DNA of 64,000 nucleotides from Varroa destructor (Eukaryota > Arthropoda > Arachnida > Mesostigmata > Varroidae), in NCBI RefSeq assembly GCF_002443255.2, contig NW_019211456.1:14716229-14780228 (forward strand), read 5' to 3'. A program made the translations under genes and the position numbers. Under the pieces are notes generated by a model. That model was not told where the DNA came from. It saw only the letters and a program-made list of their open reading frames with translations, and made no database searches. Shown one piece after another: positions 307-64,000 of this stretch. Numbering within the stretch: position 1 is the stretch's first letter; each line of letters begins with the position of its first letter.

Positions 307-495
307 CCCTAATATGAAGCTCCACAATCGCTTGAATAGTTCCTAAACCATTCGCGGCCAGACAGGCAAAGCGAGCCCCGTGAAGTCGCGCAGCGCCGCG
401 GACACGCAAAACTCGTGCCCCTGGAGTTTCGCTGGATTTTAGTGGCACGATGTCAACTTGTGGAGGTAGCCACGAGCTCCAATGACCGTCTGATC
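307..495 (-). CDS. exon: C-terminal half of a Dscam-like Ig domain
   Basis: A 189-nt exon between a 3' splice site (TTTTCAG at 498-496) and a GTACCT 5' splice site (306 downward), phase 1 at both ends. It encodes the second half of an Ig domain. The F-strand cysteine and G-strand lie in ARFACLAANGLGTI, which matches the C-A-x-N-x-x-G signature of I-set Ig domains in Dscam. A preceding low-complexity stretch (SSWLPPQ...) replaces the usual C'-D region, and the canonical D-x-G-x-Y is degenerate (LHGARFAC). Its partner is the exon at 3984-4109, which supplies the B-strand Cys and C-strand Trp. The position of the internal intron, just after the Trp-containing strand, is the same as in the Ig2 pair at 46.6-48.2 kb. 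The gene continues to the left of the window. Confidence 0.72.
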
Positions 496-3983: not shown

Positions 3984-4109
3984 CTTCAGCAGTCCACGAG
4001 ATTTCTGGCGCAGGCGAGCCGGTTGCATTGCATGAGATATCAGCCGTCTCTTCCACCAAAAGGTTGATTTCACTTGGCGGCGGCGTACCGTTCGACCATC
4101 GCGGGGGAA
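3984..4109 (-). CDS. exon: N-terminal half of a Dscam-like Ig domain (Ig8-like)
   Basis: A 126-nt exon, phase 1 at both ends, opened by ATTACAG at 4116-4110. The translation starts VPPRW, the typical start of Dscam Ig8, and contains the B-strand cysteine (ADISCNATGSP) and the C-strand tryptophan (PEISWTAEG). Reading past the exon gives a short open tail, but only the GC 5' splice site (AAG|GCAAGCC) keeps phase 1 with the partner exon at 307-495; the nearest reasonable GT site (near 3911) would leave phase 2. The joined domain has one Cys pair and one core Trp, as expected. It is a constant domain that follows the Ig exon at 29606-29884. Confidence 0.75.
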
Positions 4110-29605: not shown

Positions 29606-29884
29606 CAAGAACCACAAATTGAGTGGCGTGCCGATCTCTCGAATTCCTGGCGTCTTCTACCTCGCACTCGTATCTACCCCCATCGGCTTCAATCACTTGT
29701 TGAATCTGCAGTACACTTAAGTCTGTCAACTGCCGAAGCTGGACACGGGTTCCGCTGCGAATCAGATGTCCTTCATGGAACCAACGAAACTCAACGGGAG
29801 GCACACCACTGACGAGGGCACAGACAGCAGTTAAGTTCGAACCGACAGCTGTGGGGTGAATGCTAAACGCCTGGATGCGGGGAC
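29606..29884 (-). CDS. exon: complete Dscam-like Ig domain (Ig7-like, constant)
   Basis: A 279-nt exon with phase 1 at both ends, bounded by CTACAG (29890-29885) and GTAAGTTT (29605 downward). It encodes a whole I-set Ig domain. It opens GPRIQAFSIHP, has the B-strand Cys in LTAVCALVSG, the core Trp in VEFRWFHEGH and the F-strand Cys in DGGRYECEVEDAR. The G strand, ending QFVVLG, finishes at the splice site. The form (G-PRI start, EFRW...GHLI, one-exon domain) is that of Dscam Ig7, the same type as the variable cassettes, but this one is single copy. It can be spliced in frame either from the leader exon at 44343-44520 or from the Ig2 exon ending at 46621. Confidence in the exon is high; which upstream exon is used is open. 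Confidence 0.85.
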
Positions 29885-46620: not shown

Positions 46621-46758
46621 CTCGCACTACAACTTTGACCTCTTTATGAATTTCTCCGAGGGTATTTTTTGCCGTACATTTGTAGGTTCCCACATCGTCT
46701 CGGGTAACATTGGAGAAGTGTAGGGTACCATCCGGTTCGGATTGGAGATGCGTGTTAT
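46621..46758 (-). CDS. exon: C-terminal half of constant Ig2
   Basis: A 138-nt exon, phase 1 in and out, between GCTTAG (46764-46759) and GTAAGG (46620 downward). It encodes the second half of an Ig domain with DDVGTYKCTAKNTLGE, a textbook D-x-G-x-Y-x-C-x-A-x-N-x-x-G motif, and ends in the strand EVKVVVR. It pairs with the exon at 48088-48216. Read-through into the intron meets a stop after a few codons, so intron retention would give a truncated product. The next in-phase exon recognised to the left is the Ig exon at 29606-29884. Confidence 0.85.
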
Positions 46759-48087: not shown

Positions 48088-48216
48088 CTCCGAGATCAAC
48101 CCGCTGCCATGTAATAGTTGCCTGTGGATAACTAATTACGTCGCATTTTACGTTGAGCGGTTGGTTGAGAGAAGCTACGACTTCTTTTTGAAGATCGCTG
48201 GCCCATGACGGAGGTC
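48088..48216 (-). CDS. exon: N-terminal half of constant Ig2 (Ig8-like)
   Basis: A 129-nt exon, phase 1 at both ends, between CTAATAG (48223-48217) and GTGAGTG (48087 downward). It encodes GPPSWASDL, then the B-strand Cys (LNVKCDVISYP) and the core Trp (ATITWQRVDLG). Each cassette Ig1 exon ends V-E-G or a close variant in phase 1, so any of them joins this exon as VEG-PPSW without a frame change. It is therefore the constant acceptor exon for the whole array. The PP-x-W opening and the split Ig match Dscam Ig8, in keeping with Ig7-like variable exons upstream. Confidence 0.85.
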
Positions 48217-51007
48217 CTATTAGATTGCAGAATCACGAGCAAGCGGAAAATATGTTAGATTGTTGTTTCTATAGATTTTTACATGATTTGCTTTTTGGGG
48301 ACCATGCAGCGAAAAATAATTGTAAAAATGAAGGTCGAAATTCTTCGCCACAGAATTTTCCAATGAACACTCATTGACTTCACACAGTCAATGCGTTTCC
48401 GACACGTATTGTTTCAAGGAATTGACTCGATTTTAAGCTAGATGAACACAAAGAGTGTGATAATATGAATCAACAATGAATAAAAAGGATTCTGTGGCGA
48501 TATCAAACTGAGCAGAATCATTAGCTTAGACTAGTCTTTGTTATACGAACTTCTGACCCAGTCTGACTTCCAGTTAAACACTGATCGACCTAATACAGTA
48601 TGCTCTCCACCTTAGATAGAGAAGGACTATTGATAAAAAAAAAAAAACTAACAAAAAAATCATATCTATGGTGGAGCAACAACTGAGCATGCATATTTTC
48701 TGGAGGAAGTTCAAAGCAGTGAATTTTGGTAAATTACATCGTATTATAAGGCTATTTATAAATTGTTGAAAAAAAAAAACTGTTTAAAAATCTTCTTCTG
48801 AGAACTGTTAAAAAATCTTCTTCATTTTCTAATCGTATATTGGATATCATAAGGGTCTGCTCAGCTTCCTTCAGAATTTTGTTGGGGGGTGGTATTCTAC
48901 AAAGATAAAGAAAGCACTTTACGATTTTCGTTGAGTTATTGATGACCTGAAAATTTACCTATGCGGTAGAGGACCAAGGGCCCTCACCGCAGGAACTGAC
49001 CCAGCACTATCTATAGGTTATTGTGCTGTCAGGTGTGTGTGTTAGGCCAAAATGTACGACTCACAAGGTTCGCGCACTTCGCCGCTGGGCAGTTCTACCT
49101 AAAACATACGATACCAAGGACATACAGGATGTTCTTCTTCCTTTTCAGCAATACATATTATATAGCTAAACTGAATATTGGTTGGACTCGTACTCTTCTT
49201 CTTCTTCAATTCAGAGTTTACAGGACCAAACTTGCCATAATTTTTGATTGAATATTGTAAAAAAAAACTGCCTGTAATAAGACTTCGCCATAAAGAAAGC
49301 GACCGAACACGTTTTCGTAAGCATAGGAATGAGTAGTAGCTTTAAGAAACCGGGACTAACAGCCGATAATCTTCCCCTCGGATAAAGAAGCTGCGAGTAT
49401 AATATATAGGTTCATTTACTTTGCGTGACGGGTAGAAAAATTAGGGAATGAATAAGATCAACCGCAAGAGGACTATAATCGAGATGTCGCTGGCAAGAAA
49501 TCTGGAAAAGAGGCGATTTATTATCAAGACAACCACGGGTTATCCTACACGGCGCTGGACATTTTGAATCAGAGCTTACTGTGGTGACCGAGTGAACCAG
49601 CTCCTGTGTTCTCAGCCGACGCCAAAGACGCCTGCAGCAAAAGCTTCAAGCGAGCAGCTGATCGAAGAACACAAATTTATTGATATATAATTATGATTAT
49701 TATTATTATTTGTTCTTCACTCGTTGATAGCACCGCGTACACAGGTCAAAAATAATTGCGTTCTATGGCATTCGTCGCTAAGTGCGTCTCGAAACCATCT
49801 GGTGATCGCCACTAAATGAGACCCCAAGAGGACGTAGGCGTGTGTCGATGTCAGACCAGTACGAACATAGTATTATTCAGCGCTAGTGATTTTAGCGGAT
49901 TTAATCTAACAATAATAGTAAGAAAGATATTGAGGCAGTAATAAGTGAGATATTTTTTCCCAGCTGTGTGGTAACAAGCTTCTGTTTTCGATACAAAGAG
50001 TAATAAGAGGAAAACTAATCTACGAAAGCCAATAAATACTCATCAAAACAAGCACGTACACAAAAATATGCGTAATAACCATGTCCCACCCAATTCATAT
50101 GGAAGAATGCCATGAAGGTTGAGCTCTGCTCGCGAATGTAGAACTGAACGAAGCGCTATAGTTCGAACGCGAAAGCTGCTGCACGCAACGAGCTGGGTCA
50201 TTTAGGCTAGCTTTTAAAGCCATAAAATTGACGAAAATTATCACCAGTGAGGGGTCGAGGCAGAGGCTAAAGTAAAAACAGATCAATAGAAACGAAATGT
50301 AATATCAGCGGACGTACGCACGACAAAACAAACGACGTATTTATATGATTGCGTATACATGTATCATTAGTGATACTTTGATAAATACAGGCAGACAGAG
50401 GAACCAGTTAAATCCGTAGGGGAGAGTGAATGAGATTAATTCAGGGCGCAGTTGATAAGCAGCAACCAATGGGACACGATACATTATCGCTACGATTAGA
50501 TATTATATACAAACTTCGACGAAGTTAAGCAAGAGAATCTATTGAGAGAACATCCTGTATGCATATACCTACATACAATAGAGTGATGATAATGATCATT
50601 TGCAAAAATCATTTGCAATTTTATTGATAGTATCGATATGTACATGCACAGACGCAATGGTAGACAGCGGACGTAACGTAACATCGCCGTGTCTTAACAT
50701 CAGCTGCTAAGGACTTGAAACGTCACACATAGCCCAATGCGTTTACAGCTCGAAAGCTTTGCTTGTCGAATGTGCAATAAAGTATGACTAAGCATCAATA
50801 ATCTTTCAAAGTAAAAAAAAAACTGACTTTACTCATTTAATACAGATTGGATGTGTTACAACTTCAAGTCCTTTTACAAATATCTTTGTTATTGCTACCC
50901 CTCCCACCCTTTTACCTGAAAACGCACAGTAATAAAACGTTAATTACTTTCATCACAAACAATTTCATATACACATATGAATGCTGAACAGATAAAAGAA
51001 GCCTTAC
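48217..51007. other. spacer between constant Ig2 and the cassette array
   Basis: About 2.8 kb, AT-rich with A-runs (for example near 48.64 and 48.77 kb). A GC-richer patch near 49.55-49.67 kb has splice-like ends, but the phase-1 frame is closed. In other clustered gene families this position holds docking or regulatory sequence; nothing specific is recognisable here. Confidence 0.4.
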
Positions 51008-51740: not shown

Positions 51741-52223
51741 CTTCGACAATAAGTCTGGCGCTAACTCGATCCTCTGAAAATGAGTTCTTAGCCACACAAG
51801 TATAGTTGCCAGCGTCACCGGCCTCTATGTCGCGGATGGTCAGAAATGAGCTTACAGGATTATCATGAATACGGAATTTTCGGCCATCTCGAATGAGCTG
51901 ACCGTCTCTGGCCCAAAGGAATTCCGTAACATCTCCCGAAAGCACCGTACAGACGAAATTCACCACCCGGCCAACGCGCACCTTTTGAGTTGTTAGCTTT
52001 TCTAACTGTACCGTTTCTGTATTAAACATTCGACCATAAGCCATTCACAAACGGAACTGTTTTTGAAGATATTCCAGATGTCTGAATGTATATTCTGTTG
52101 CATACAATATAGTGTTTTTACAAACAAAAACTCCCGAAAACACTCACCGGTGCTGATGGAAATACAACTCGTCCATAAAGTGCACGTAACTAAAAATGTA
52201 GATGCAAGTGGTGACGCCATCAT
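51741..52223 (-). CDS. sDscam: variable cassette 1 (proximal): signal peptide exon + Ig1 exon
   Basis: The leader exon 52148-52223 encodes MMASPLASTFLVTCTLW and on, ending AGC ACC G|GTGAGTG (phase 1). The Ig exon 51741-52016 (276 nt) starts after TACAG and ends GTC GAA G|GTATCTG. Together they give a signal peptide plus one Ig domain. B-strand Cys is in VVNFVCTVLSG, core Trp in TEFLWARDGQLI, and the F-strand motif is DAGNYTCVAKNSFSEDR, with an N-glycosylation sequon (NYT). This is the membrane-distal recognition domain in sDscam proteins. It is the cassette nearest the constant exons, and in the F-G region it resembles the 58-61 kb cassettes more than its nearest intact neighbours. Own promoter at 52257-52310. 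Confidence 0.85.
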
Positions 52224-52256
52224 ACCCGAAAACGTTTTATCAAAGGAGCGCGTCAA

Positions 52257-52310
52257 TGAAGGCTCCTTGAGTATATGTGAGTTGGGTTCAAATAGCCTCG
52301 CTCCCAGCGC
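52257..52310 (-). promoter_or_regulatory. promoter of cassette 1
   Basis: Shared core element on the minus strand, CTGGGAGCGAGGCTATT (plus-strand 52291-52307). A TTCATTG initiator-like sequence follows with its A at 52257, 35 bp from the core, and the ATG lies 34 nt further on. The upstream CTAG-GCG block of the other promoters is only partly kept (CTAGGGA near 52324). Confidence 0.5.
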
Positions 52311-52841
52311 TTGGAAGTTACGGCTAGGGAGATTACAGCGGCAGTTTTGATCAAATCGAATAGGAAGCCTTAAGACAGACATATAGTCAAGACAAATCCC
52401 CGTCGCTTAGAGGTTCGAGTTCAAGATGCTTTAAACAAAATAGGCTATCTCAGGAACCGCATTTGGGTAATCTGGTACAGGTAAAAGCTGAACTACATAA
52501 ATGAATAAATTTGTTATATCTGTTCTACCCTGAGCTGGCTCAATAAGATACGGTAGCTGATGCGTGTATCGAAGAAACGCCGCGGATATTTTCACCTTAT
52601 TCTAAAAGTGTATCCTTTAGCACCAGTACCATGAATCATGAGATCGAGGTATCAATATAAACATAATATGAACGCCTCGATCTTCTCTTTCATAAAACAT
52701 ATCTGTTCTATCAGTAAATAAGTATGATTATTGAACACGCCAATCCTTCTTTCTGTCGAAGTAAACAATGAGTATTACACCAATGAACTGAAGCTTTATC
52801 TTCATTGCCGCTCGCTTTAAGCTGGCTTCCTTTCATAGTAC

Positions 52842-53111
52842 CTTGCACAGTCATAACAATGCTGACCCGGTCTTCTGAGCGAGAATTCTTTACTGCGTAA
52901 TTATCGGCATCATTATGACTCACGTTTCGCATGTTTAACATGAAAATATCCAAATTAATATTTATCACATGTTTGACAGTGTCGTTATTGATCGATCGGC
53001 CTTTATAAGTCCACAAGAACTCTTTGACACCCCCAGCGAAAATAATTCAGTCAAGGAGTGCAGTCTGTCCGGCCTTCACTGTGATGGGTGGAAGTTGTCA
53101 ATGTGAATTTG
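52842..53111 (-). pseudogene. decayed variable cassette A (Ig1 exon remnant)
   Basis: Aligns along its length with the cassette Ig exons: ITVKAGQ, EFLWTYKGRS, NVSHNDADNY and NSRSEDRVSI are all in the expected order. A usable GTACTA donor and a possible acceptor remain. Inactivating changes are a TGA exactly where the B-strand Cys codon should be, another TGA near the start, and loss of two codons at the F-strand that removes the second Cys (NYAVKN instead of NYTCVAKN). No matching leader exon or promoter element was found upstream, so it is a dead unit. Confidence 0.75.
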
Positions 53112-54080
53112 CTCTCAGATATTAGAAGGCCGATTTTACCAATTCACATCAATCGTTAACATATTGGAAATTCGTAATATGCTTTATTAAAAGAAGCTCG
53201 GTTATTTAGTCTACTTCATTAATGAAAAATGTACTATGAGTCGAAAACGGAGTGTTTCATTATAATCGAAGTCCGTGCAGTATTTGACGTGAACTAAAGT
53301 GGTAAAAGCGTTTCATCATCCATAAAACTTAATTTACCTTAGATACGATATAATGCAATTCGATATGAGTAATGGCCCCCCAATTGCTGCCTGAGGCATC
53401 GCAAGAAATAAGTGGGAACTGTATACCTTTACTGAAAGCAAAGAGATACATGGCGAACCTTGATCAATCTATTAGCCAATCAATCGTAGACACTGGCGTT
53501 CAGCTTTTTACCGTTGGACAATGATGTATCCGATAGCGGCAGTGCAATTATTAGCTGAATAATAGCACCCGGTAACGTATTTCCACATACGACACGTCTG
53601 GTATTATAAACGGATTTCAGTTCTCGTTAACGTTTTTGAGCTGTTCCGTTTGTATGGGTTGTTCGTACGATAGTCTTATTCCCATAGGCTCGACGATCGA
53701 TATCTAGAGTTTGACGCAAATTTGCGGATATTGGTACAACAATACAATTACCATATGTTTTCTACGAATCATTGACGCGTTAAACAATTTTTTGATGGCT
53801 CGCTTCAAGCGTAGCTTATCTACAACAGTCACCTACATCGGTTTTCACGCAGTGTACGTCATCGATCCATCGATCAAGCTATCTATGAAATCAAAAATCA
53901 ATCTGTTCGACTCAATAATTTGTATTAGCTTTGGCCCCAAATGAATATTTGGTTGAATGACTTTGTCAAGGTGTATATAAACTGAATTATTAGAGTGAAT
54001 AATAACTGTATAAAAGGTACAGTCCGCAGTGAACACAGCCGATGTTGAAACCAAGATCTTTCAGGGTTTGAGCCCTCGAA

Positions 54081-54366
54081 AGGAAAACCACATGTATTAG
54101 ACAATGCCTTGTGCCGAATGTGGATTCTTTGCTAGGCACATTTACCTGCCAGCATCGTTATGGTTTACATTTTGAACGTTCAGCACAGAGTAATCAGGAT
54201 AATGTTTATCATGATCTCGAAACGCCACTCCTTAACAGCTGATCCTCCTTGACTCATGAAACCGACTCCGTCGCATTTCTAGCGATAGCTGTACAGACGA
54301 AGTGTACTGTGCGGCCTGCTTTCCGGCCGAGGCTTTCCGGCCGAGGCTTTCCTTAGTGAATAGGTT
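54081..54366 (-). pseudogene. decayed variable cassette B (Ig1 exon remnant)
   Basis: The acceptor (ATTTTAG at 54373-54367) survives, and the exon begins EPI as in other cassettes. Recognisable blocks are GRTVHFVCTAIARNATE (B-strand), VKEDQLLR, and YSVLNVQNVNHNDAGR followed by CLAKNPHSAQ (E to F strands). The core Trp codon is replaced by TGA, there are further stops and at least one frameshift, and a 14-bp tandem repeat sits near the start. The donor is lost (about 54081). A hydrophobic ORF beginning MLGSAIIIPICYLFSFN (start near 54592) may be the remnant of its leader exon. Confidence 0.7.
54318..54352. repeat. 14-bp tandem repeat, 2.5 copies
   Basis: GCTTTCCGGCCGAG at 54318-54331 and 54332-54345, followed by GCTTTCC. 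It lies inside decayed cassette B. It is not a multiple of three, so its expansion alone would shift the frame. Confidence 0.88.
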
Positions 54367-55552
54367 CTAAAATACGGTTCATATAAATTTTCTGTCAAAC
54401 TTCGTGCATAGATAGCATTAATAAACGGGGTGCTATTCCAAATTTAGGGAAAATGTTGCGTTCCCTTGTTGAAATTACGCAGGATCTAGGCAGTACCATA
54501 AGAATACATCTGTCGTTATGTAGTGAATTATCAGACTTTTTATTAAATGAAAATAGATAACATATAGGAATTATAATTGCAGAACCTAACATTTGCTTTA
54601 TTATAGTTTACGTCTATTAAAAGCATTGAAAACAGGACGGCGATGCATTAAACTGACGCGTGATACCTTAATTTGGAAATAAAAAATGGACAAGTTTGTG
54701 GTTCGTACCTATAGCTGAAACAATTCATCAAACGACTGAAATCCAATAAGGATTGATGATATGCTTAATACCATGTTTGTGTGCAAAACGGACATAAATA
54801 AATCAATGAACAAAAAGCACCTCACATGGCGTTCTCTTTCGGCCATCGCCCTTCTTTGTCCTTTGATAACAACTGAGCGTCTCAGGATAAAGCCTCGCTC
54901 CCATTCCTCTAGATCATGGGTGTCTAGGATAGAATAGGTATTTTTGGATAAGCCGTGCGTGGTTCACGCGCGGTTTAGCGAACATGTCTTTCCTGTTTTT
55001 TTTTTCCAATTTAATAGGGGCAATGCTATTCCTACATAAAACTAATACCGTTTACTGTCGTAATTTACAGTAAAACGTACGCATTTAGGTCTGGTTAATG
55101 AAACTTTGTTGAAAAAGGTTGAAAAGAGTTTTGAAAAGGTTCAACTCGGTCTGAACATACGGCTTTAGTTCGATGCTAAATATTAATATGAGTATACCAC
55201 GCAGTTCTGTGTTGTGTTACATTACATTTTAGAAATCATAATGTAGCCGGCAGAACGGATAAATAGATACCCACCCGTTTTTCTAATCCCGTACTGGATA
55301 TGTCTAATCTCTAAAAAAAAAACATGTGACTCTCCCGGTTTAAAGTCTTGCGTAACATTGTGTCCGCTCAAACTTGTCAAAACAAATTCATGGTACCTTA
55401 AAGCCTTGCCTCATACCATGCGCAAGTATGGAAACGTTAGATTGATGTTTGAAATGTCTATCTAATTGATATAGTAGTACTATTTAATACCAACGAACTT
55501 CACATGTTCACTATTTCATATTAGGTTTCTGGGTGCGTTCCTCTGGACAAAC

Positions 55553-56087
55553 CTTCAACTGCCAACTGTGCTGTAACTCTGCCTTCTGAGACTGCACTGT
55601 TTGCAATACATGTATAATTGCCACTGTCACTATTGTTCACACCGCTGATTTTCAGTATCGATGATTCAACATCGTTTAGAATTCTAATACGATTTCCATC
55701 TTTGAGTAAATGCCCATTCTTTGTCCAGGAGAATTCGGCATCTTTGCCCTGGGTGAGCTCACAGACGAGCGTCGCCATTCGGCCCACGCTAAACCTTTTC
55801 GACCCAATTTCCATCAGGCGAATGCTTCCTCTATCGAGTTTATCTGCCCAATATATTGAAATTCATTCGGAATATATGACTTCATCATTTAGAGAAACTG
55901 ACCATGCTAAAATTATAAGAAACACTGAATTTGTCTAACCGAGAACATGAACTGCATCAAGTATTTCGTTTCTGGAACATGAAAAGCGCTGCTTACCCCA
56001 GGTTGCGAGATTGCTGCGCGACCCACAAATTAGAAGAATGATCACTAAAAAATACTGGCGCACTAGATTGTAGTAAAATATAATCAT
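55553..56087 (-). CDS. sDscam: variable cassette 2: signal peptide exon + Ig1 exon
   Basis: The leader exon 55997-56087 starts MIIFYYNLVRQYFLVIILLI and ends ACC TGG G|GTAAGC (phase 1). The Ig exon 55553-55843 (291 nt, the longest) starts after TTGGGCAG and ends GTT GAA G|GTTTGT. Domain motifs are MATLVCELTQG (B Cys), DAEFSWTKNGHLL (Trp) and SDSGNYTCIANSAVSEGR (F Cys), with an NYT and an NNS sequon. It differs from the distal cassettes by an extra KLDRG near the start, a GKDAEFSW insertion and SSILKIS in the E strand. It shares the last two with cassette 3, so the two neighbours form a subfamily. Confidence 0.85.
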
Positions 56088-56142
56088 CGTTACAAATGCT
56101 TTCACACAGCACATTCAATACATCAGTCTGAACGGGCATCAA

Positions 56143-56228
56143 TGCTTTTTGGTGGTTCGGGATATCAAAGGTGGTTAGAAAAGTCTCATTACCAGACTTT
56201 GGTTGGGAGTGCAGCTAGGCTAGGGCGC
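56143..56228 (-). promoter_or_regulatory. promoter of cassette 2
   Basis: A diverged core element on the minus strand, AAGTCTGGTAATGAGACTT (56181-56199). An upstream block, GCGCCCTA (56221-56228), sits about 40 bp before it. A GCATTG initiator-like site with A at 56143 lies 38 bp after the core, giving a leader of about 56 nt. Confidence 0.45.
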
Positions 56229-56874
56229 CAAACCTTGAACATTCGGTAAATGTAGTTTGGCTGTCGCATCCTTCAGAGACGGTAAAGTTTCAAATACGTT
56301 ACCATTACTTAAGTCACTTAGTATCATTAGTCAGCCAGAATAATGATCTGACAATTAAAGTATTCGACTTATTATAATAAGTTCGCCTGTTTTTTTACCA
56401 ATATTTTTGAAATTTTATTCCGTGCACACAACTCTAACTGGTTAGCCACAGTGTGAAACGCACAACTAACAATATGCGTTTCTAATAGATCGGTTTGATT
56501 AGGACCTTGGAAAGGTTGTTTTTTCAATAACACCTGCGGGTTCAAATATTGAACATTACTGCTGGGCTTGGATAAAACAATGCGAAAAAAAATGTCGACA
56601 ATTTTTAATTATTGAGGGTTCACTGTGTAATAAATAGGTCATTTGTATCACTTTGTTTATTTGTCCTTAGGTATTCCTGTTTTATAAGACACCATTGACT
56701 CTATCCACTGACCAAAATAACTTCAATTTTTACCACAGGAATTTCAATAGGCTCGCATTAAGCAGAATATGCAATAATCTATGCAAAATTTCCGCGGCTT
56801 AGAAGCTCTGTGTTTTTGACAATTTATATATAATAAACAACAGTGCAGCTTTAACGCCGCCGATCCCAGCTAAC

Positions 56875-57417
56875 CTTCCACACGCAGTCGAGTTGTTACA
56901 CGGGCCTCGGAGCGTCTAGTCTTTGCTACGCAAGTATAGTTTCCACTATCATTGTGACCCACATTAGATATTTTCAAAATGGACGATTCTTCCGAGCTTA
57001 TAACTCTAATTCGATGTCCATCTCTGAGAAGACGGCCTCTTGAAATCCACGAAAATTCAACGTCTTTGCCATCACCCTCAGATATTTCACAGACGAATGT
57101 GCCCACTCGTCCAGATTTTAAATCTTTCGATGGAATTTCAAGGAGCTTAATAGCGTCTGAAAGAATCGTATGGAAATTTCAATTTTTTTTAAAGATATTA
57201 TTGTACTAGTCTCGTGTGCTTTTCGACTACCATTGTAGTTTACAGTCGTGTGTTATAATTGCTACACCTCGACTAAACTGGCACGTAAGAGCATTAGGGT
57301 AGTAAAAATTATTTCTCTATCTAGGTCGAGGAGAGTCTACTTACCATTCGCGGCAGAACATCGACAAAAATGATATCCTAGCATAAGTGTTAACGTCAAT
57401 AAATGTTCATTCTGCAT
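56875..57417 (-). CDS. sDscam: variable cassette 3: signal peptide exon + Ig1 exon
   Basis: The leader exon 57345-57417 encodes MQNEHLLTLTLMLGYHFCRC and ends GCG AAT G|GTAAGT (phase 1). The Ig exon 56875-57156 (282 nt) starts after CTTTCAG and ends GTG GAA G|GTTAGC. Motifs are GTFVCEISEG (B Cys), DVEFSWISRGRLL (Trp) and NDSGNYTCVAKTRRSEAR (F Cys), with NDS and NYT sequons. It shares the GKD(A/V)EFSW insertion and SSILKIS strand with cassette 2. Splicing to the constant exon at 48216 keeps frame. Confidence 0.85.
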
Positions 57418-57482
57418 CTTCAGCACTCGCTCACGCCACAAACAAAAGCGGTAAAGCCTAAAACTTTGATTGTGCGAAACGA

Positions 57483-57566
57483 TGCTTCCCAGCAGAGTGC
57501 TAACGTTCGTTAGTCAATTTTAGCCTCGTCCCCAGAAGAGGATAACATTGCACCCTGCCTAGCGCG
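57483..57566 (-). promoter_or_regulatory. promoter of cassette 3
   Basis: Core CTGGGGACGAGGCTAAA on the minus strand (about 57518-57535), upstream block CGCGCTAG (57559-57566), and a GCATCG initiator-like site with A at 57483, 37 bp from the core. The implied leader is about 66 nt to the ATG at 57417. Confidence 0.55.
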
Positions 57567-58481
57567 TAAAATTTAAAAACTTGCCATGTTCATTGTTTAT
57601 CGTAGTAGTTGCTCCTATTAAGGTGAACATGACAAGGCCTTTCCAATGGATTTATTCTTTAATTGTAAGCGTAATTGAGACTATTGCCTTCAGTAGTCTT
57701 CAATAAAAAATGTATGTGAGAAGACAAGCTTTTGGCTTACCAAAGTCTGCCATTTATGGGCGGATTTATAGGTCGTTCAAAATTTCCGTAGGGTGTCAAA
57801 GAGAGTATCCCGCTTTATTAGGGCTGCCATCACAATAAATATATAAAAACAAACTGTCTCTGACTTATAGCATCAAAAATGTACATCGCTATTTCTGCGT
57901 TTCATGTAACTTATTACAGCACGCAAAACTATATATAGAGCATTGTAGCATATGCTTCATCTAGCATATATTTTCCAATAGAAAACCTGTAGCTATGCGA
58001 AGTACATCTGCACATGGATAATTTTAATGAATGTAGAAAACTAAACTTCTTTTATCAATTCAGACGATATCTTCAACGTTCTGAAGCACCCGATGTTTTT
58101 TTGTATTCAACTAGTGTTAACTATCAGCGCTCCGCATGTCGTTTATAACATATTCATTATTTCATTCAATACTAACGTCAGTAAACATCATTTTAATAGA
58201 TAAGTTTGTAGCCAGCTTATAACTGGTCCTGAATTTGCTATATAACGTCTCTGCTTTATCTATTTCAATAAGCAGAACAGAAAACATGTGCTTATCGTGT
58301 TATAATAAGTAAGACAACTTACGCAGCTTCATTTTACTACATACAAACATCGCATTCACTTTCATGTTCGACCTTTTTTTGTCCAATATGTGATCATGTC
58401 CACCAAAAAATAAAAAAATAGAACTGTACATATATGTACATTTTATGCGTTGACAAATACGAATGTGCACCTAATGAATAC

Positions 58482-59008
58482 CTTCAACCCTAAGTGTTGC
58501 ACTCCTTCGATCCTCTGAAAAACTATTTTTCGCTACACACATATATGAACCAGCGTCCTTTGGATTGACGTTCCGAATTGTCAGGAATGAATTTTCAGGG
58601 TGACTGGTTATCCTATATTTTTCATTTTGTCGAATCAGTTGTCCTTCCTTCAACCAAAGAAATTCAATCGCTATCCCATTTACCACAGTGCATGTAAAGC
58701 TGGCGCTTTTTCCAGTTCGGACCGTCCTTGACTGAATATTTTCCAACTGAATAGACTCTAAAAATTTCACATAACAGCTCGTATAAGGCAAATGTTTCGT
58801 CATGGTACTTTCGGGTTCAATTACTCCATGTACGCACGCATTGTCGTCGACCCAGGCCTCCAATTCTGGCCCAATTATTCTCAATATCGTGTACACAGAA
58901 CTCACCGTTAGCGTGCGTAAATCTGCTTAAGCTGCAAACTGTCATAAGAACTGTCAAAACCACAGAGTTAAGGTGTACAAACACCCTTATTGCATGTTCC
59001 TTTGACAT
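58482..59008 (-). CDS. sDscam: variable cassette 4: signal peptide exon + Ig1 exon
   Basis: The leader exon 58906-59008 begins MSKEHAIRVFVHLNSVVLTV and ends GCT AAC G|GTGAGTTC (phase 1); an in-frame ATG three codons earlier (59017) is also possible. The Ig exon 58482-58757 (276 nt) starts after TTTTTAG and ends GTT GAA G|GTATTC. Motifs are SASFTCTVVNG (B Cys), IEFLWLKEGQLI (Trp) and DAGSYMCVAKNSFSEDRR (F Cys). It belongs with cassettes 5 and 6, which share the FTHA-like leader end, the (S/A)KTVR-GKSASF B-strand and the C-V-A-K-N-S-F-S-E-D signature. Local tandem duplication is the simplest origin. Confidence 0.88.
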
Positions 59009-59066
59009 AACTTCCACTGCTTACAACGCTCACATTACGGTGTGACAATGCAGAATAGATAATGAC

Positions 59067-59152
59067 TGAGTAAGAAGAGATTCCAAATGATCTAACCATT
59101 GTCGTAGCCTTGCTCCCATATCGTGCCCTCTGCGTATGCGAGACTAGGGCGC
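59067..59152 (-). promoter_or_regulatory. promoter of cassette 4
   Basis: Core ATGGGAGCAAGGCTACGACA on the minus strand (about 59099-59118), upstream block GCGCCCTA (59145-59152), and a TCAGTC arthropod-type initiator with A at 59067, exactly 37 bp from the core. The implied leader is about 59 nt. Confidence 0.6.
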
Positions 59153-59827
59153 TCATATTTTAACATGTAGACGACAAAGTGTGCCATGTATTCCTCATTC
59201 TCAAAACGTCTGTGCTGTTTGTGTAAATAGCAAGGTTTGCTAATTCTAAAGAGTGCCGTTGCATATTACGGACATAGATGCTATGGCGTTGTTGATTTTT
59301 CCCAATATGCTATGCCATGAGGCCGATACCGTAAATTATGGACTTTTATTCACCACTCGCAATCCATTCCGTTTTGCATGTAGGTGTTTACTGGCTCTCT
59401 AGCCGCCGTGCCATCGGGTTATTCCCTCCAGTGAGCATTGATTAAATAGGACTATATAGGTTGAGTAAAGCGAGGTGCATTTGTAAATTCGTAAAAAAAC
59501 ATTTACTTTGCTCTTTTTAGGGTTTTTCCATTGGCGCCAACAAGGACATGATTTTATATTGTTTCTTGTTTAACAACTACAAACAAACAGGTAGATCATA
59601 ATTTGTGTCTATCTTGGTTCTCTGAATGATATTGTGACATGGTATTTCTGGTGAAAAGATGTTAAGGCAATAGTAGAGTGATATTTTGGATGTTTTTTTT
59701 ATTATAATTTAAATGGGCTGTTTTTTTTTCGATTGCAATTAAAATAGGCTTATTTATTTCGGTATCAAAAAGCGGACGCATTGCCTGCATAAATATTATT
59801 ACAGATTTAGTTGTAAAAATGTATTAC

Positions 59828-60314
59828 CTTTCACTGAAAGTATGGCTTTTGTATGATCTTCGGAGAAGCTATTTTTAGCAACACAAACATACGTCCCTGC
59901 GTCGCTTTGATCCACATTTTTAATCGTCAAAACAGAATTTTCAGGAGTAATTATTATCCTTGACTTTTCATCCTGCTGCAACAATTGTCCTTCTTTCAAC
60001 CATAAAAATTCCGTAGCGTCACCACCGGCCACAGAACACATAAAACTGGCACTCTTTCCTTTTCGTACCGTTTTAGACTGGATTTTCTCCAACTGAATTG
60101 GATCTTGAAGTTCATCAATCAACAATCCGATATGTTATTCTCTGTTTTGTATGTAAAGAAATGACAAAAAATCTGGTTCAATCTCAAGCATCAGAGCAAT
60201 CCTTCCGAAAGATATCAATAGCCAGAACTCACCATTGGCATTGGCAAACTTGACTAATACAGAGCAAATTGTCACGAAAATCGTAAAGACCACAAAACCA
60301 AAATGTAACGACAT
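59828..60314 (-). CDS. sDscam: variable cassette 5: signal peptide exon + Ig1 exon
   Basis: The leader exon 60233-60314 encodes MSLHFGFVVFTIFVTICSVL and ends GCC AAT G|GTGAGTTC (phase 1). The same frame is open upstream to ATGs at 60413 and beyond, but these lie before the predicted initiator (60393), so the ATG at 60314 is preferred. The Ig exon 59828-60103 (276 nt) starts after TTCAAG and ends GTG AAA G|GTAATAC. Motifs are SASFMCSVAGG (B Cys), TEFLWLKEGQLL (Trp) and DAGTYVCVAKNSFSEDH (F Cys). Very close to cassettes 4 and 6. Confidence 0.88.
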
Positions 60315-60392
60315 CCCGGTTTTTATTTGACTCGGTTGCACCTTTTCTGCTGTAAAAGCACACAGTATAACATTGCGTGTGACGAAGCAAAC

Positions 60393-60479
60393 TGAACATG
60401 AAAATGTATTCATAGCTTTCAATGTTGTCGTAGCCTCATTCCCAGAGCGCTTCGTTACCCTACGGGAGGTTCTAGCGCG
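60393..60479 (-). promoter_or_regulatory. promoter of cassette 5
   Basis: Core CTGGGAATGAGGCTACGACA on the minus strand (about 60425-60444), upstream block CGCGCTA (60473-60479), and a TCAGTT initiator with A at 60393, 37 bp from the core, the same spacing as in cassettes 3 and 4. The implied leader is about 79 nt. Confidence 0.6.
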
Positions 60480-61189
60480 TACATTCAAACTCCTCTACAG
60501 AAGTACAATCTCGCTTAGACCAAACATTTATAATATAGTGCATATAAACCGTAATATGCTGCAATACAAAAAAACCAAGCCAGCCAAACAGAGTGAAAAA
60601 CATTATAGCCGCATATCGAGAACAGATATAAAAGCCCATCATGACCATATCATAGAAAAATGTTTGCTTTCTCTTTTTTAAAAGCATGAAATATAAAAAT
60701 GCACTAATAATAATAGTATTCTATACAAATGTCTGTTCCAACCTATATTTTTTCTCTCTATAGCATGCTACAGCATGAGATGCATATTCTATTATTGTAT
60801 CTTAACGGTCGAAGTATAATAATATATAAATTAAATACAGCACCTTTGCTTACTTGCTGTAAGAAAGCCCACGAATATACACGTACATTTGTACGTTCTA
60901 AGCATTATCGCAGCGACTATCTTGTGAGTTTCATATTTACGTAACCAAACAATTCCTCTCGTTGGATTGTGTCTACAATACCTCATATGACAACTGAGAA
61001 CAATTAGGTTCTACTGAGGCTCGTACAATCAGTTCAGCCTCAAGAAGATATGACGGGTATCTCGACTGAGAATCACAATCTAAAGTGCAGCGATAAACGC
61101 ATCGACTTACCAAAAGCATGTACGATTCTGTCACATTGCAAAAACAAGTCAGCATTCTTTTATAATTGACACTCATCAATATTTTCTAC

Positions 61190-61748
61190 CTTCAACTCGA
61201 AGGATAGCTGTTGTTCGATCTTCTGAAAAGCTATTTTTCGCCACGCATGTATATATCCCAGCATCGTTCTGGTCCACATTACGCACTGTTAACAACGAAT
61301 TTTCGGGATTGATGTTAATTCTAAATTTTGCGTCTTGCTTTATTAGCTGACCTCCCTTCAACCATAGAAATTCGCTTGCTTCACCATCAGTTACGATACA
61401 TGTAAAGCTGGCGCTCTTTCCAGTTCGCACTGTTTTAGCTGGAATCTTTTCCACTTGTACTGTCTCTAAAAATGTCACACATTGCCGTTTAGACGAAGCA
61501 TCTTTTCCGGTGCATATATGCTATTTGTGTATACATGTATCCGTGATCTCCATCGAAGAACAACCAGCGCTTATATTCTACGGACCATCGGCATAAACAG
61601 TAATTTCAATCTAAACCGCCTGCAGCTTAGCGTATGGGAACTCACCGGTTGCATGAGTAAAATGGCCCGAACCCAAAATTGTCACGAGAAATGAAAATAT
61701 TAGTGAACTGACTGTTATAATCCTTCCTGATTTCTTCTCAGCATACAT
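61190..61748 (-). CDS. sDscam: variable cassette 6: signal peptide exon + Ig1 exon
   Basis: The leader exon 61646-61748 encodes MYAEKKSGRIITVSSLIFSF and on, ending GCA ACC G|GTGAGTTC (phase 1). The Ig exon 61190-61465 (276 nt) starts after TTTTTAG and ends GTT GAA G|GTAGAA. Motifs are SASFTCIVTDG (B Cys), SEFLWLKGGQLI (Trp) and DAGIYTCVAKNSFSEDR (F Cys). It is the most distal intact cassette in the window. Confidence 0.88.
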
Positions 61749-61802
61749 TGTTCTATCTTGAGAGAGCACACATTCTAGCACTACTTCGGGACTAACAAGG
61801 AC

Positions 61803-61887
61803 TGAAGACTATTATACGACTCGGGAGTCTTACAGTAACCTCGTCACCAGAGAGTTGGGCCTACGTATACGAGACACTGGCGGTCAT
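61803..61887 (-). promoter_or_regulatory. promoter of cassette 6
   Basis: Core TCTGGTGACGAGGTTACTGT on the minus strand (about 61833-61851), a diverged upstream block (ACCGCCAGT near 61875-61883), and a TCAGTC initiator with A at 61803, 32 bp from the core. The implied leader is about 55 nt. Confidence 0.55.
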
Positions 61888-62136
61888 ATTCAAACTAGGG
61901 AATGAAAAATATTGAGCATCAATATTGCACCCCGATACCTTGTCTATTAAAACCTTGCAATCATTGAGGAACTTGTGCTACATACTACTGTACTGAAGAA
62001 ATATCATAAATGGGCACGGGGCAAAATCGGTCTGCAACAGAGGGGTATCAGTGTTGTAGCACCTGACTCAACTTATTCACGAAAGACACGTTACACAATA
62101 GATTTAATATGTGTGTATATCTATAGCCACAATTAT

Positions 62137-62647
62137 TTTCAACCGTGTGTTTGTTGAAGTTGGTCTTCTAAAAATATAGATATATAGCCACATAGATGTA
62201 TAGCGTGCGTCTCTTTGGTTAACATTTCGAATTGTTAATACTGAATAGTTAGGGTTAACCTTTACCCGAAATTTCACGAATTGCTCCTTTTTCAGTCACG
62301 TAATTCGGTTGTACCACCACCTCTCACCACACACATGAAGCCGATACTTCTCCCATCTCGGAACGGTCTTTGACTGAAATGTTTTCAAATTTACCGGCTC
62401 AAAAAAGGATCTCACAATAATTTATTTGCATCTTTTACCCGTGTATCTCCATTGATATTACAACAGGCGTTTGCATCTTCTAGCGTATGTATGGTTTCAG
62501 CTCTGGTACTTCTATTTTCTAGGGAATTCAGCATAGCGTTATCTTAAAAACTGTCTATTAGCACGTACGAATACAACAGAAATGCAAATGATCACTGTAA
62601 TGTTTAAAAACAGGGTTTTGTAATTCCTTCAGAACGCGGCACCTCAT
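62137..62647 (-). pseudogene. decayed variable cassette C (leader and Ig1 remnants)
   Basis: The Ig remnant, 62137-62399, keeps EPVNLKTFQSKTV at its start, then (after a frameshift) RSIGFMCVVRGG with the B-strand Cys, and NPNYSVLTIRNVNQRDA in the E strand. The core Trp codon is TGA, the acceptor AG has become TG, and the donor is gone. The leader remnant, 62555-62647, has a hydrophobic core in one frame (LNITVIICISVVFVRAN), but the ATG is in another frame, and the 5' splice site has changed from GGTGAG to GACAG. The gap between the two parts (about 155 bp) equals that of intact cassettes. No clear promoter element remains. Confidence 0.72.
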
Positions 62648-63856
62648 CACTCTAATAGCACACATATTGATTACATCATAACTAAAACGGGGAAGCGCTT
62701 ACTTTATCGGAAGATAGCGAACAAAATCAAATTTTCAGGGCTTCAGATCTCTCCATACGAGGTTATCGCAGTATTCCCTGTTGATGTAGTCTTTTGATTA
62801 TATGTAAATTCTTGCTTTTTACGTTCGTCATTGATAACAACGTAATCTCTAGGGGTTGCAAAAATTTAACTGGTGGAACTTAATGACGTCCTACTTTTTT
62901 TTTTTTAACTACAAACTACTTGAGCTTCTATGAGTTATCGTAGCTAAATTTCGAACAACATTCTGATCGTTAAACTCAGTCTAATTCTCATTCATAGTCT
63001 CCATACTTGACAAATTACTTAATGGATTCATTAATTCGCCAAGCGTAACTACTACTGAAGTGGGCTAACATCCGCCATCATCACGTACACCCGCGGGCTT
63101 TACCCCGCGCCTGTTTTGCTACTGAACACACCACATATGTGTGAAAGTGAAAATCTCATTATATTTATAATAGCCGTAAAGTCAAATATCATGTAGCCTA
63201 TATTGTGTATAGTATAGTCTCCTATATTGTATTTTACGATCAGTTTTTTTTATACAACCCATGTTGCGGAGCACAATCTTTACTCAAAATGTACAACTGT
63301 ACATTCGATAATATTTCAGCACAGACATGTTATTGGCAGCCTCGTGGCTGGCGAGCCGTTACTTTGAAACGTTGAAAAAGAAAAAGTCTCTGCCATCGGT
63401 TCATCATTAATATAATTAACATTATGGTCTAAAAAATAGACAGGATTTATCCCCTAAAACCATAAGGATTTAATCGATTGGCTTTATCTTGCGCACAGTT
63501 TTTCCTGAATGAAAGTCCGTGATCCATTAAATTTGCTAAATTCACTCCCTTTAAACCCCGCAAGCTTAAATTTTTAATAGAGCATAGTCGAAAGATTGTA
63601 CGTTTGGCGCTTTCTTTTTGTAAAATCGTAACCCAGACATTACTGTTAGAGATATTGTGCTTTAATTATGTTCTTCCCAAAAGCCAACAAGTCGAACACT
63701 TTGGGCAGCAACATGATTTTATATAAAACCATCTAATTTGCTCGGTAGAATTGATAAGGCTAAAATCAAGGAAATATTTCATATGAAGATAATTATGCAC
63801 AAGATAATTACTTGTGCATGCAAATACAGCCTCTAAATCTCACTCATTGACAATGG
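62648..63856. other. distal array spacer, possible heavily decayed unit
   Basis: Mostly AT-rich, with a short GC-rich stretch near 63.09-63.12 kb. A degraded copy of the promoter core may lie near 63337-63350 (minus-strand CACGAGGCTGCC), with an ACAGT initiator-like site about 39 bp downstream. A faint SLTIR-like strand appears near 62.98 kb. The evidence is too weak to call a cassette. Confidence 0.25.
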
Positions 63857-64000
63857 CTTCCACTTTTAACAGAACCGCTGTTCTTGCTTCGGATGAACTG
63901 TTTTTTTGTCAGGCAGCAATAGTTGTCTGCACGGTAAATAGTTCTCGCTCTCTAACTTCGACTAGAAAATAACACACATACGCAAAGTTTTTCCCGCGCC
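63857..64000 (-). pseudogene. decayed variable cassette D (Ig1 exon remnant, cut by window edge)
   Basis: Its end matches the end of cassette Ig exons. ADNYCCLTK holds the F-strand Cys, then comes a one-base shift in a run of seven A, then KNSSSEARTAVLLKVE. The donor position reads GAA G|CC instead of GAA G|GT. The exon continues past base 64000, so the array extends to the right of the window. Confidence 0.6.

Follow-up and report, generated by a model that had tools for sequence, protein, structure and literature searches.

The 64,000-nucleotide stretch of the Varroa destructor genome considered here (contig NW_019211456.1, positions 14,716,229 to 14,780,228; 'the window') very probably carries the 5′ half of an sDscam-alpha gene, with self-starting cassettes joined to a shared second immunoglobulin (Ig) domain, Ig2. 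The sDscam genes are defined by loss of Ig1-6, Ig10 and fibronectin type III (FNIII) domains 3-4 and 6, and the alpha type has cassettes of two exons and one Ig (Yue 2016, PMC4835542; Cao 2018, PMC5775551). By its sequence, the gene is a member of this published family. The cassette organization itself is thus already known; the Varroa points for which the available literature offered no match are a short element upstream of the cassettes, a beta-like way of entering their 3′ part, and the presence of the F-strand glycan site in only part of the cassettes.

In the proposed mechanism, each cassette holds what reads as its own start region, a signal-peptide-like exon (the leader) and one variable Ig1 exon. 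Transcription would start at the chosen cassette, the leader would splice to its own Ig1 (as a database protein indicates for cassette A and the sequence alone for B-F), and Ig1 would join the shared pair of Ig2 exons, to be followed by the Ig9-like, three FNIII, transmembrane (TM) and cytoplasmic parts found in database protein P0004. The chosen Ig1 would then set homophilic specificity via its ABED face, as published structures and the variation among A-F suggest. A beta-like unit between 30 and 0.3 kb can also lead into this 3′ part. One promoter need not give one isoform: for most scorpion sDscam genes, about 10-40% of isoforms are estimated to be non-canonical, and some of these combine exons of different cassettes (Yue 2016, PMC4835542).

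A preliminary description of this DNA had seen six intact leader and Ig1 units on one strand in a shared phase, and all six (A-F) were recovered, on the minus strand and in phase 1, with the ends it gave at 51741 and 48216 coinciding exactly with exon ends (Table 1). The leader exons, each with an ATG, are 73-103 nt long and the Ig1 exons 276-291 nt, with introns of 129-188 nt between them; the leader donor is GTGAGT in A, B, C and F, GTAAGT in D and GTAAGC in E. When spliced to 48216-48088, 46758-46621 and 29884-29606, every cassette gives an open reading frame, and an in-frame stop lies 15-186 nt upstream of each of the six ATGs. The exact starts of B, E and F are uncertain because further in-frame ATGs lie upstream. 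Pfam I-set matches range from 1.8e-12 to 2e-20 for B-F and reach 2.3e-47 for P0004, the carrier of cassette A. The cassettes are old copies kept by selection, since the proportion of synonymous differences (pS) is near saturation (0.69-0.87 across the 15 cassette pairs, 13 of them past the Jukes-Cantor limit) while its non-synonymous counterpart is held down (pN/pS 0.21-0.58 in all 15 pairs, purifying selection). Searches with P0004 and P0106 (tblastn) gave no match at 62.5-64.0 kb; repeats of at least 40 nt in 1-48 kb, tandem arrays of score at least 80 and Rfam families at gathering score were likewise not found.

Table 1. Features of the Varroa sDscam-alpha gene and its neighbourhood; positions are those of the window
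Feature	Position	Strand	Remarks
Cassette A leader exon, ATG at 61748	61646..61748	-	identical to P0004 residues 1-34
Cassette A Ig1 exon	61190..61465	-	gene model; match to P0004
Cassette B leader exon	60233..60314	-	gene model
Cassette B Ig1 exon	59828..60103	-	gene model; Pfam I-set
Cassette C leader exon	58906..59008	-	gene model
Cassette C Ig1 exon	58482..58757	-	gene model; Pfam I-set
Cassette D leader exon	57345..57417	-	gene model
Cassette D Ig1 exon	56875..57156	-	gene model; Pfam I-set
Cassette E leader exon	55997..56087	-	gene model
Cassette E Ig1 exon	55553..55843	-	gene model; Pfam I-set
Cassette F leader exon	52148..52223	-	gene model
Cassette F Ig1 exon	51741..52016	-	gene model; Pfam I-set
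Ig2 (Ig8-type), first half, common to A-F	48088..48216	-	100% to P0004
Ig2, second half	46621..46758	-	phase 1; 100% to P0004
Element of A	61834..61851	-	starts 103 nt before ATG
Element of B	60429..60446	-	132 nt before ATG
Element of C	59103..59120	-	112 nt before ATG
Element of D	57519..57536	-	119 nt before ATG
Element of E	56179..56196	-	109 nt before ATG; weakest of six
Element of F	52291..52308	-	85 nt before ATG
Untrained element copy	54888..54905	-	score 16.6; 707 nt ahead of matched part of decayed Ig1 54198-54115
Untrained element copy	53669..53686	-	score 14.9; 589 nt ahead of matched part of decayed Ig1 53097-52840
Decayed Ig1	52840..53097	-	E 5.8e-12; in-frame stop, F-strand Cys missing (by eye)
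Decayed Ig1, matched part	54115..54198	-	E 0.003; stops and frame shifts (by eye)
Decayed Ig1 fragment	62206..62283	-	E 6.4e-5
Ig7-type exon (Ig3′) of beta-like unit	29606..29884	-	I-set 2.6e-10; top identity 38% among 142 proteins
First exon of P0106	7266..7430	-	100% over 55 residues
Alternative Ig8 unit (Ig4′), first half	3984..4109	-	P0106 match 4116-3982, 97.8%
Alternative Ig8 unit (Ig4′), second half	307..495	-	P0106 match 499-308, 98.4%

How the cassettes are joined to the rest of the gene is indicated by P0004, a Varroa jacobsoni protein annotated as a Down syndrome cell adhesion molecule homolog. Both it and P0106, of V. destructor, came from a search that scored the 7987 candidate proteins sharing most words and gave 217 matches, 120 of them listed; 142 proteins were retrieved. 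P0004 runs in the order leader A, Ig1 A, Ig2a, Ig2b, Ig9-like, three FNIII, TM and tail, with three I-set and three fn3 stretches in Pfam and, at 640, a hydrophobic segment of 19 residues. The leader and Ig1 of cassette A agree with it except at its residue 77, which is R in P0004 and K in the window, and Ig2 is 100% identical over 89 residues. The Ig9-like, FNIII, TM and tail parts of P0004 gave no good match in the window with tblastn, and their exons therefore lie to the left of it; the gene would run from right to left across the window and past its left edge.

The family assignment follows from the FNIII domains of P0004, which best match 589-682, 684-779 and 1077-1169 of D. busckii Dscam, by order FNIII 1, 2 and 5; the third match is weak (2e-8, 22%), with FNIII 6 next at 3.6e-5. 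P0004 has the sDscam order of three Ig, three FNIII, TM and tail, its 3′ exons lying outside the window. The tandem 5′ array of two-exon leader and Ig cassettes that marks the alpha type is present in all six units, and the junction of a cassette to the constant Ig8 is seen for A, through P0004. Domain order, FNIII 1-2-5 and this junction agree with the earlier view of the gene as a chelicerate sDscam with alternative first cassettes, unlike insect Dscam1. A domain tree of 68 rows (few columns, the deeper forks weak) was built without stretches of fewer than 70 residues (one of 31 units from the mite Galendromus, one of five from P0124) and without the three domains of P0004, which Varroa rows represent. 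Ig2 and Ig4′ fall in a group with Drosophila Ig8 and also Ig10 (97/89), and the third Ig of P0004 goes with Drosophila Ig9 (87/85, not starred). Cassettes A, B, C and F stand together (100/97), as do D and E (100/95), both groups lying among the Galendromus units.

The Galendromus units deserve a comment. Three proteins of Galendromus occidentalis (P0001, P0002 and P0006, named as titin-like or peroxidasin homolog) contain 14, 11 and 6 Ig1-type stretches, and these are probably sDscam-alpha cassettes fused by gene prediction. Galendromus we take to be a synonym of Metaseiulus. For Varroa itself, no description of an sDscam was found in the literature searched; among the papers listed, the one that contains all three of Dscam, sDscam and Varroa names Varroa only in the title of a reference.

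Several observations weigh against the reading of the window as an sDscam-alpha gene. Cassette A alone appears among the 142 retrieved proteins, B-F being in none. The best retrieved matches, over nearly the full Ig1, are 57-69% for B, C and F and 40-51% for D and E; P0004 stands for 16 clustered members, among which a 90% clustering would conceal B, C and F, and perhaps D as well. The leaders of D and F are weakly hydrophobic. The tree does not place Ig1 with Drosophila Ig7, and a PDB profile search with A-F places titin first, with the best Drosophila Dscam1 stretch, 439-524, upstream of Ig7. With phmmer, Ig1-Ig2 of F matches 3dmk at 444-605 (57.6 bits) and at 631-798 (54.2 bits); the 444-605 and 439-524 stretches lie one domain pair further upstream. 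The Ig7 label of Ig1 thus rests on its position before Ig8. An equivalence of Ig1 with Ig5, to which the PDB searches point, was set aside, though not disproved, because Ig1 stands right before an Ig8-type domain. Foldseek with the model of Ig1 A also gives titin-type Ig first, sDscam Ig1 ranking 23, 32 and 50 of the 50 listed, a result that, on this model, reflects the I-set fold and does not discriminate.

Among gapless 14-mers shared by the 400-nt stretches that precede the six ATGs, the best is TGGGAGCGAGGCTA-like, and an 18-nt form of it starts 85-132 nt before the ATG in all six cassettes, always in the same orientation. Its score of 72/84 was reached in none of 100 dinucleotide shuffles (maximum 69) and in none of 100 sets of random same-strand stretches (maximum 70). 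A matrix made from five sites ranks the held-out site first of 127,961 both-strand positions for every cassette but E, whose site comes fifth (score 12.5), a leave-one-out test that is not fully independent, as the sites had been aligned beforehand using all six. The two top untrained matches window-wide are the copies at 54905 and 53686, each ahead of a decayed Ig1. The next are on the minus strand at 60029 (14.7, inside Ig1 of B) and on the plus strand at 49501 (14.0) and 16341 (12.8), all below the six trained sites and above the held-out score of E; the margin of the copy at 53686 (14.9) over the first of these is small. Downstream of the copy at 54905, at 54750-54845, a reading frame that opens with an ATG and looks hydrophobic in places, as judged by eye, may be what is left of the leader exon of this decayed unit.

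That the element precedes all six ATGs is consistent with each cassette having a promoter of its own, for which the in-frame stops upstream of the six ATGs are a further indirect sign, and the element is probably part of each cassette's promoter. Since the cassettes are duplicates, it could instead be a mere residue of their duplication, with no signal function, a possibility we regard as unlikely though worth weighing. It draws on several points that tell against a functional signal. The third decayed unit (62283-62206) has a best element match of 5.3 in the 1010 nt searched upstream, and the other two decayed units have their copies 589 and 707 nt from Ig1, compared with 292-386 nt in the intact units. 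A plain match count over four lineages (48-50/56) is like that of controls (47-49), and stretches of the six cassettes taken as controls reach 68 and 69/84 through AT-rich matches. Against a residue stand the near-saturated synonymous sites, the first rank of the element in five of six leave-one-out tests even if the sites were aligned with all six, and the identity across lineages, which is 0.76 in the core, a value inflated because the element was selected for conservation, 0.26-0.37 in its flanks and 0.52 in the Ig1 exons. Downstream of the Ig1 donors the best conserved 14-mer (68/84) is AT-rich, and the 14-mer method showed no shared docking site there, RNA pairing not having been examined. 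A second motif that emerged once the first was masked is an artefact of using identical letters for every mask and was discarded.

Promoter elements have been predicted, and reporter activity shown, for two cassettes of one sDscam gene (Yue 2016, PMC4835542). No description of the present element was found in the available text of published sDscam work, including Yue 2016, Cao 2018 and Cheng 2023, and the first two (PMC4835542 and PMC5775551) nowhere use the word 'motif' in their main texts.

The second feature concerns entry into the 3′ part. P0106, a V. destructor protein (isoform X12), has its own start, then the Ig4′ pair and then the P0004-type 3′ part, skipping Ig2 and Ig3′; on our own reading, its mismatches to the window occur only where matches overrun exon ends. 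The single constant split Ig2 of the preliminary description is therefore right for the route from A-F (48216, 46758) but is bypassed by P0106 through Ig4′. The earlier interpretation as a whole is partly supported. From their sequences, the Ig3′ exon at 29884 and the Ig4′ pair look like one beta-type unit feeding the 3′ part of the cassettes. The tree groups Ig3′ (88/99) with domains of first-Ig type from Limulus, Tachypleus, Ornithodoros and P0121, its branch being long and its placement unsure, and its top BLAST match is a spider Ig-like protein (P0058). The Ig3′ exon is absent from the 142 retrieved proteins, whose further cluster members are hidden from view, and no leader for it turned up, no search having been aimed at one. 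A beta-like route into an alpha 3′ part was not found in the available sDscam literature; a mixed alpha/beta gene is not without precedent, since cassettes made by combining different duplication units are mentioned by Yue 2016 (PMC4835542).

Two further observations touch this route. The exon 4109-3984, its end set from P0106, is followed by GCAAGC, a GC rather than a GT donor. The first exon of P0106 (7430-7266) encodes 55 residues in which a signal peptide is not evident by eye, and P0106 would be without a first Ig.

The same exons could be read as four or more Ig in a row (Ig1-Ig2-Ig3′-Ig4′), giving a protein longer than sDscam. The exons at 48216, 46758, 29884, 4109 and 495 are phase-compatible, and unexpected isoforms whose variable region holds three or four Ig repeats have been reported (Yue 2016, PMC4835542). 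However, in P0004 the Ig9-like part directly follows Ig2b, whereas in P0106 it follows Ig4b, and the tree, in which Ig3′ (place unsure) goes with first-Ig and Ig4′ with second-Ig domains, suggests an alternative pair. On the domain order of P0004 and P0106, we consider this reading very improbable.

The third feature is the surface of Ig1. In crystal structures sDscam Ig1 self-pairs through the ABED face, the CFG face being conserved and barred from homophilic contact by a glycan site on the F strand, present 'without exception' in the isoforms studied (shown as a logo of 40 alpha isoforms of M. martensii; Cheng 2023, PMC10154414). With strands placed on a model of Ig1 A predicted by AlphaFold (mean pLDDT 96.6), mean pairwise identity among A-F is 0.43 in the ABED strands, 0.65 in CFG (one-sided permutation p 0.014) and 0.42 in the loops. 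Outward residues, assigned by alternation and not from coordinates, are less conserved than inward ones in strand B (0.18 vs 0.49) and strand E (0.33 vs 0.89). As modelled, this variation of the ABED face fits the published homophilic mechanism.

The glycan site behaves differently from the published rule. An F-strand sequon is present in three of the six Varroa Ig1 domains (D, E and F), A, B and C having no N-x-S/T anywhere in Ig1, and in 9 of 30 Galendromus units, which cover at most 30 of the 62 reported alpha cassettes. All seven domains from Limulus, Tachypleus, Ornithodoros and P0121 that the tree assigns to the first-Ig type carry it; in Varroa, the Ig3′ exon lacks it. With 3/6 in Varroa and 9/30 in Galendromus, the rule thus fails in these mites as far as the units go; it was stated for the isoforms of Cheng 2023 and does not define the family. 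Partial loss of the F-strand glycan was not found in the available sDscam work, which reports the site without exception, and isoforms with and without it offer a natural test of its role.

A bolder proposal, doubtful as it stands, would combine these features. The one oriented promoter element per cassette would be the mite counterpart of the conserved sequence element (CSE) of the clustered protocadherins, with a single factor or chromatin loop choosing cassettes, and mesostigmatan mites would have lost the CFG-shielding F-strand glycan in many units, letting A-C bind unlike scorpion sDscams. Cassette choice in sDscam is not settled in the literature, and a short element that can be removed from a reporter makes it directly testable.

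The closest known system is the sDscam-alpha type described (Yue 2016; Cao 2018) from Mesobuthus martensii, Metaseiulus occidentalis, spiders and Limulus. Common to it and the Varroa gene are tandem two-exon 5′ cassettes of a leader and one Ig (Ig7-type, by position in Varroa) ahead of shared Ig8, Ig9, FNIII 1-2-5 and TM. The Varroa gene differs in having six intact cassettes within the window, compared with 40 and 62 reported elsewhere, and in its three decayed units, its beta-like route and the missing F-strand glycan site of A-C. The Ig3′ exon and Ig4′ pair resemble sDscam-beta, which has four-exon cassettes of Ig7 and Ig8, except that a single Varroa unit is seen and P0106 skips Ig3′. The vertebrate clustered protocadherins, unrelated as proteins, share the use of alternative first units, most of which carry a conserved element, the CSE, at a similar distance ahead of the start codon (PMC7811963). 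The protocadherin CSE is bound by CTCF and contains a CGCT box, whereas among the Varroa elements CGCT (reverse strand) was noticed by eye only in that of F and in the 54905 copy. The exon 9 cluster of Drosophila Dscam1 also encodes a variable Ig7-type domain (here so named by position), within a protein of ten Ig and six FNIII, and uses internal exons and mutually exclusive splicing. That the Varroa Ig1 exons form such an internal cluster, with one leader and promoter and the ATG exons there by chance, is hardly credible: their shared phase would make them swappable as internal exons, but in each of the six an ATG exon ends in a phase-1 donor and is preceded, at 15-186 nt, by an in-frame stop, and each has an upstream element of its own. 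Where a cluster of the Dscam1 type has one leader for all its Ig7 variants, the Varroa gene has six, and P0004 begins with leader A.

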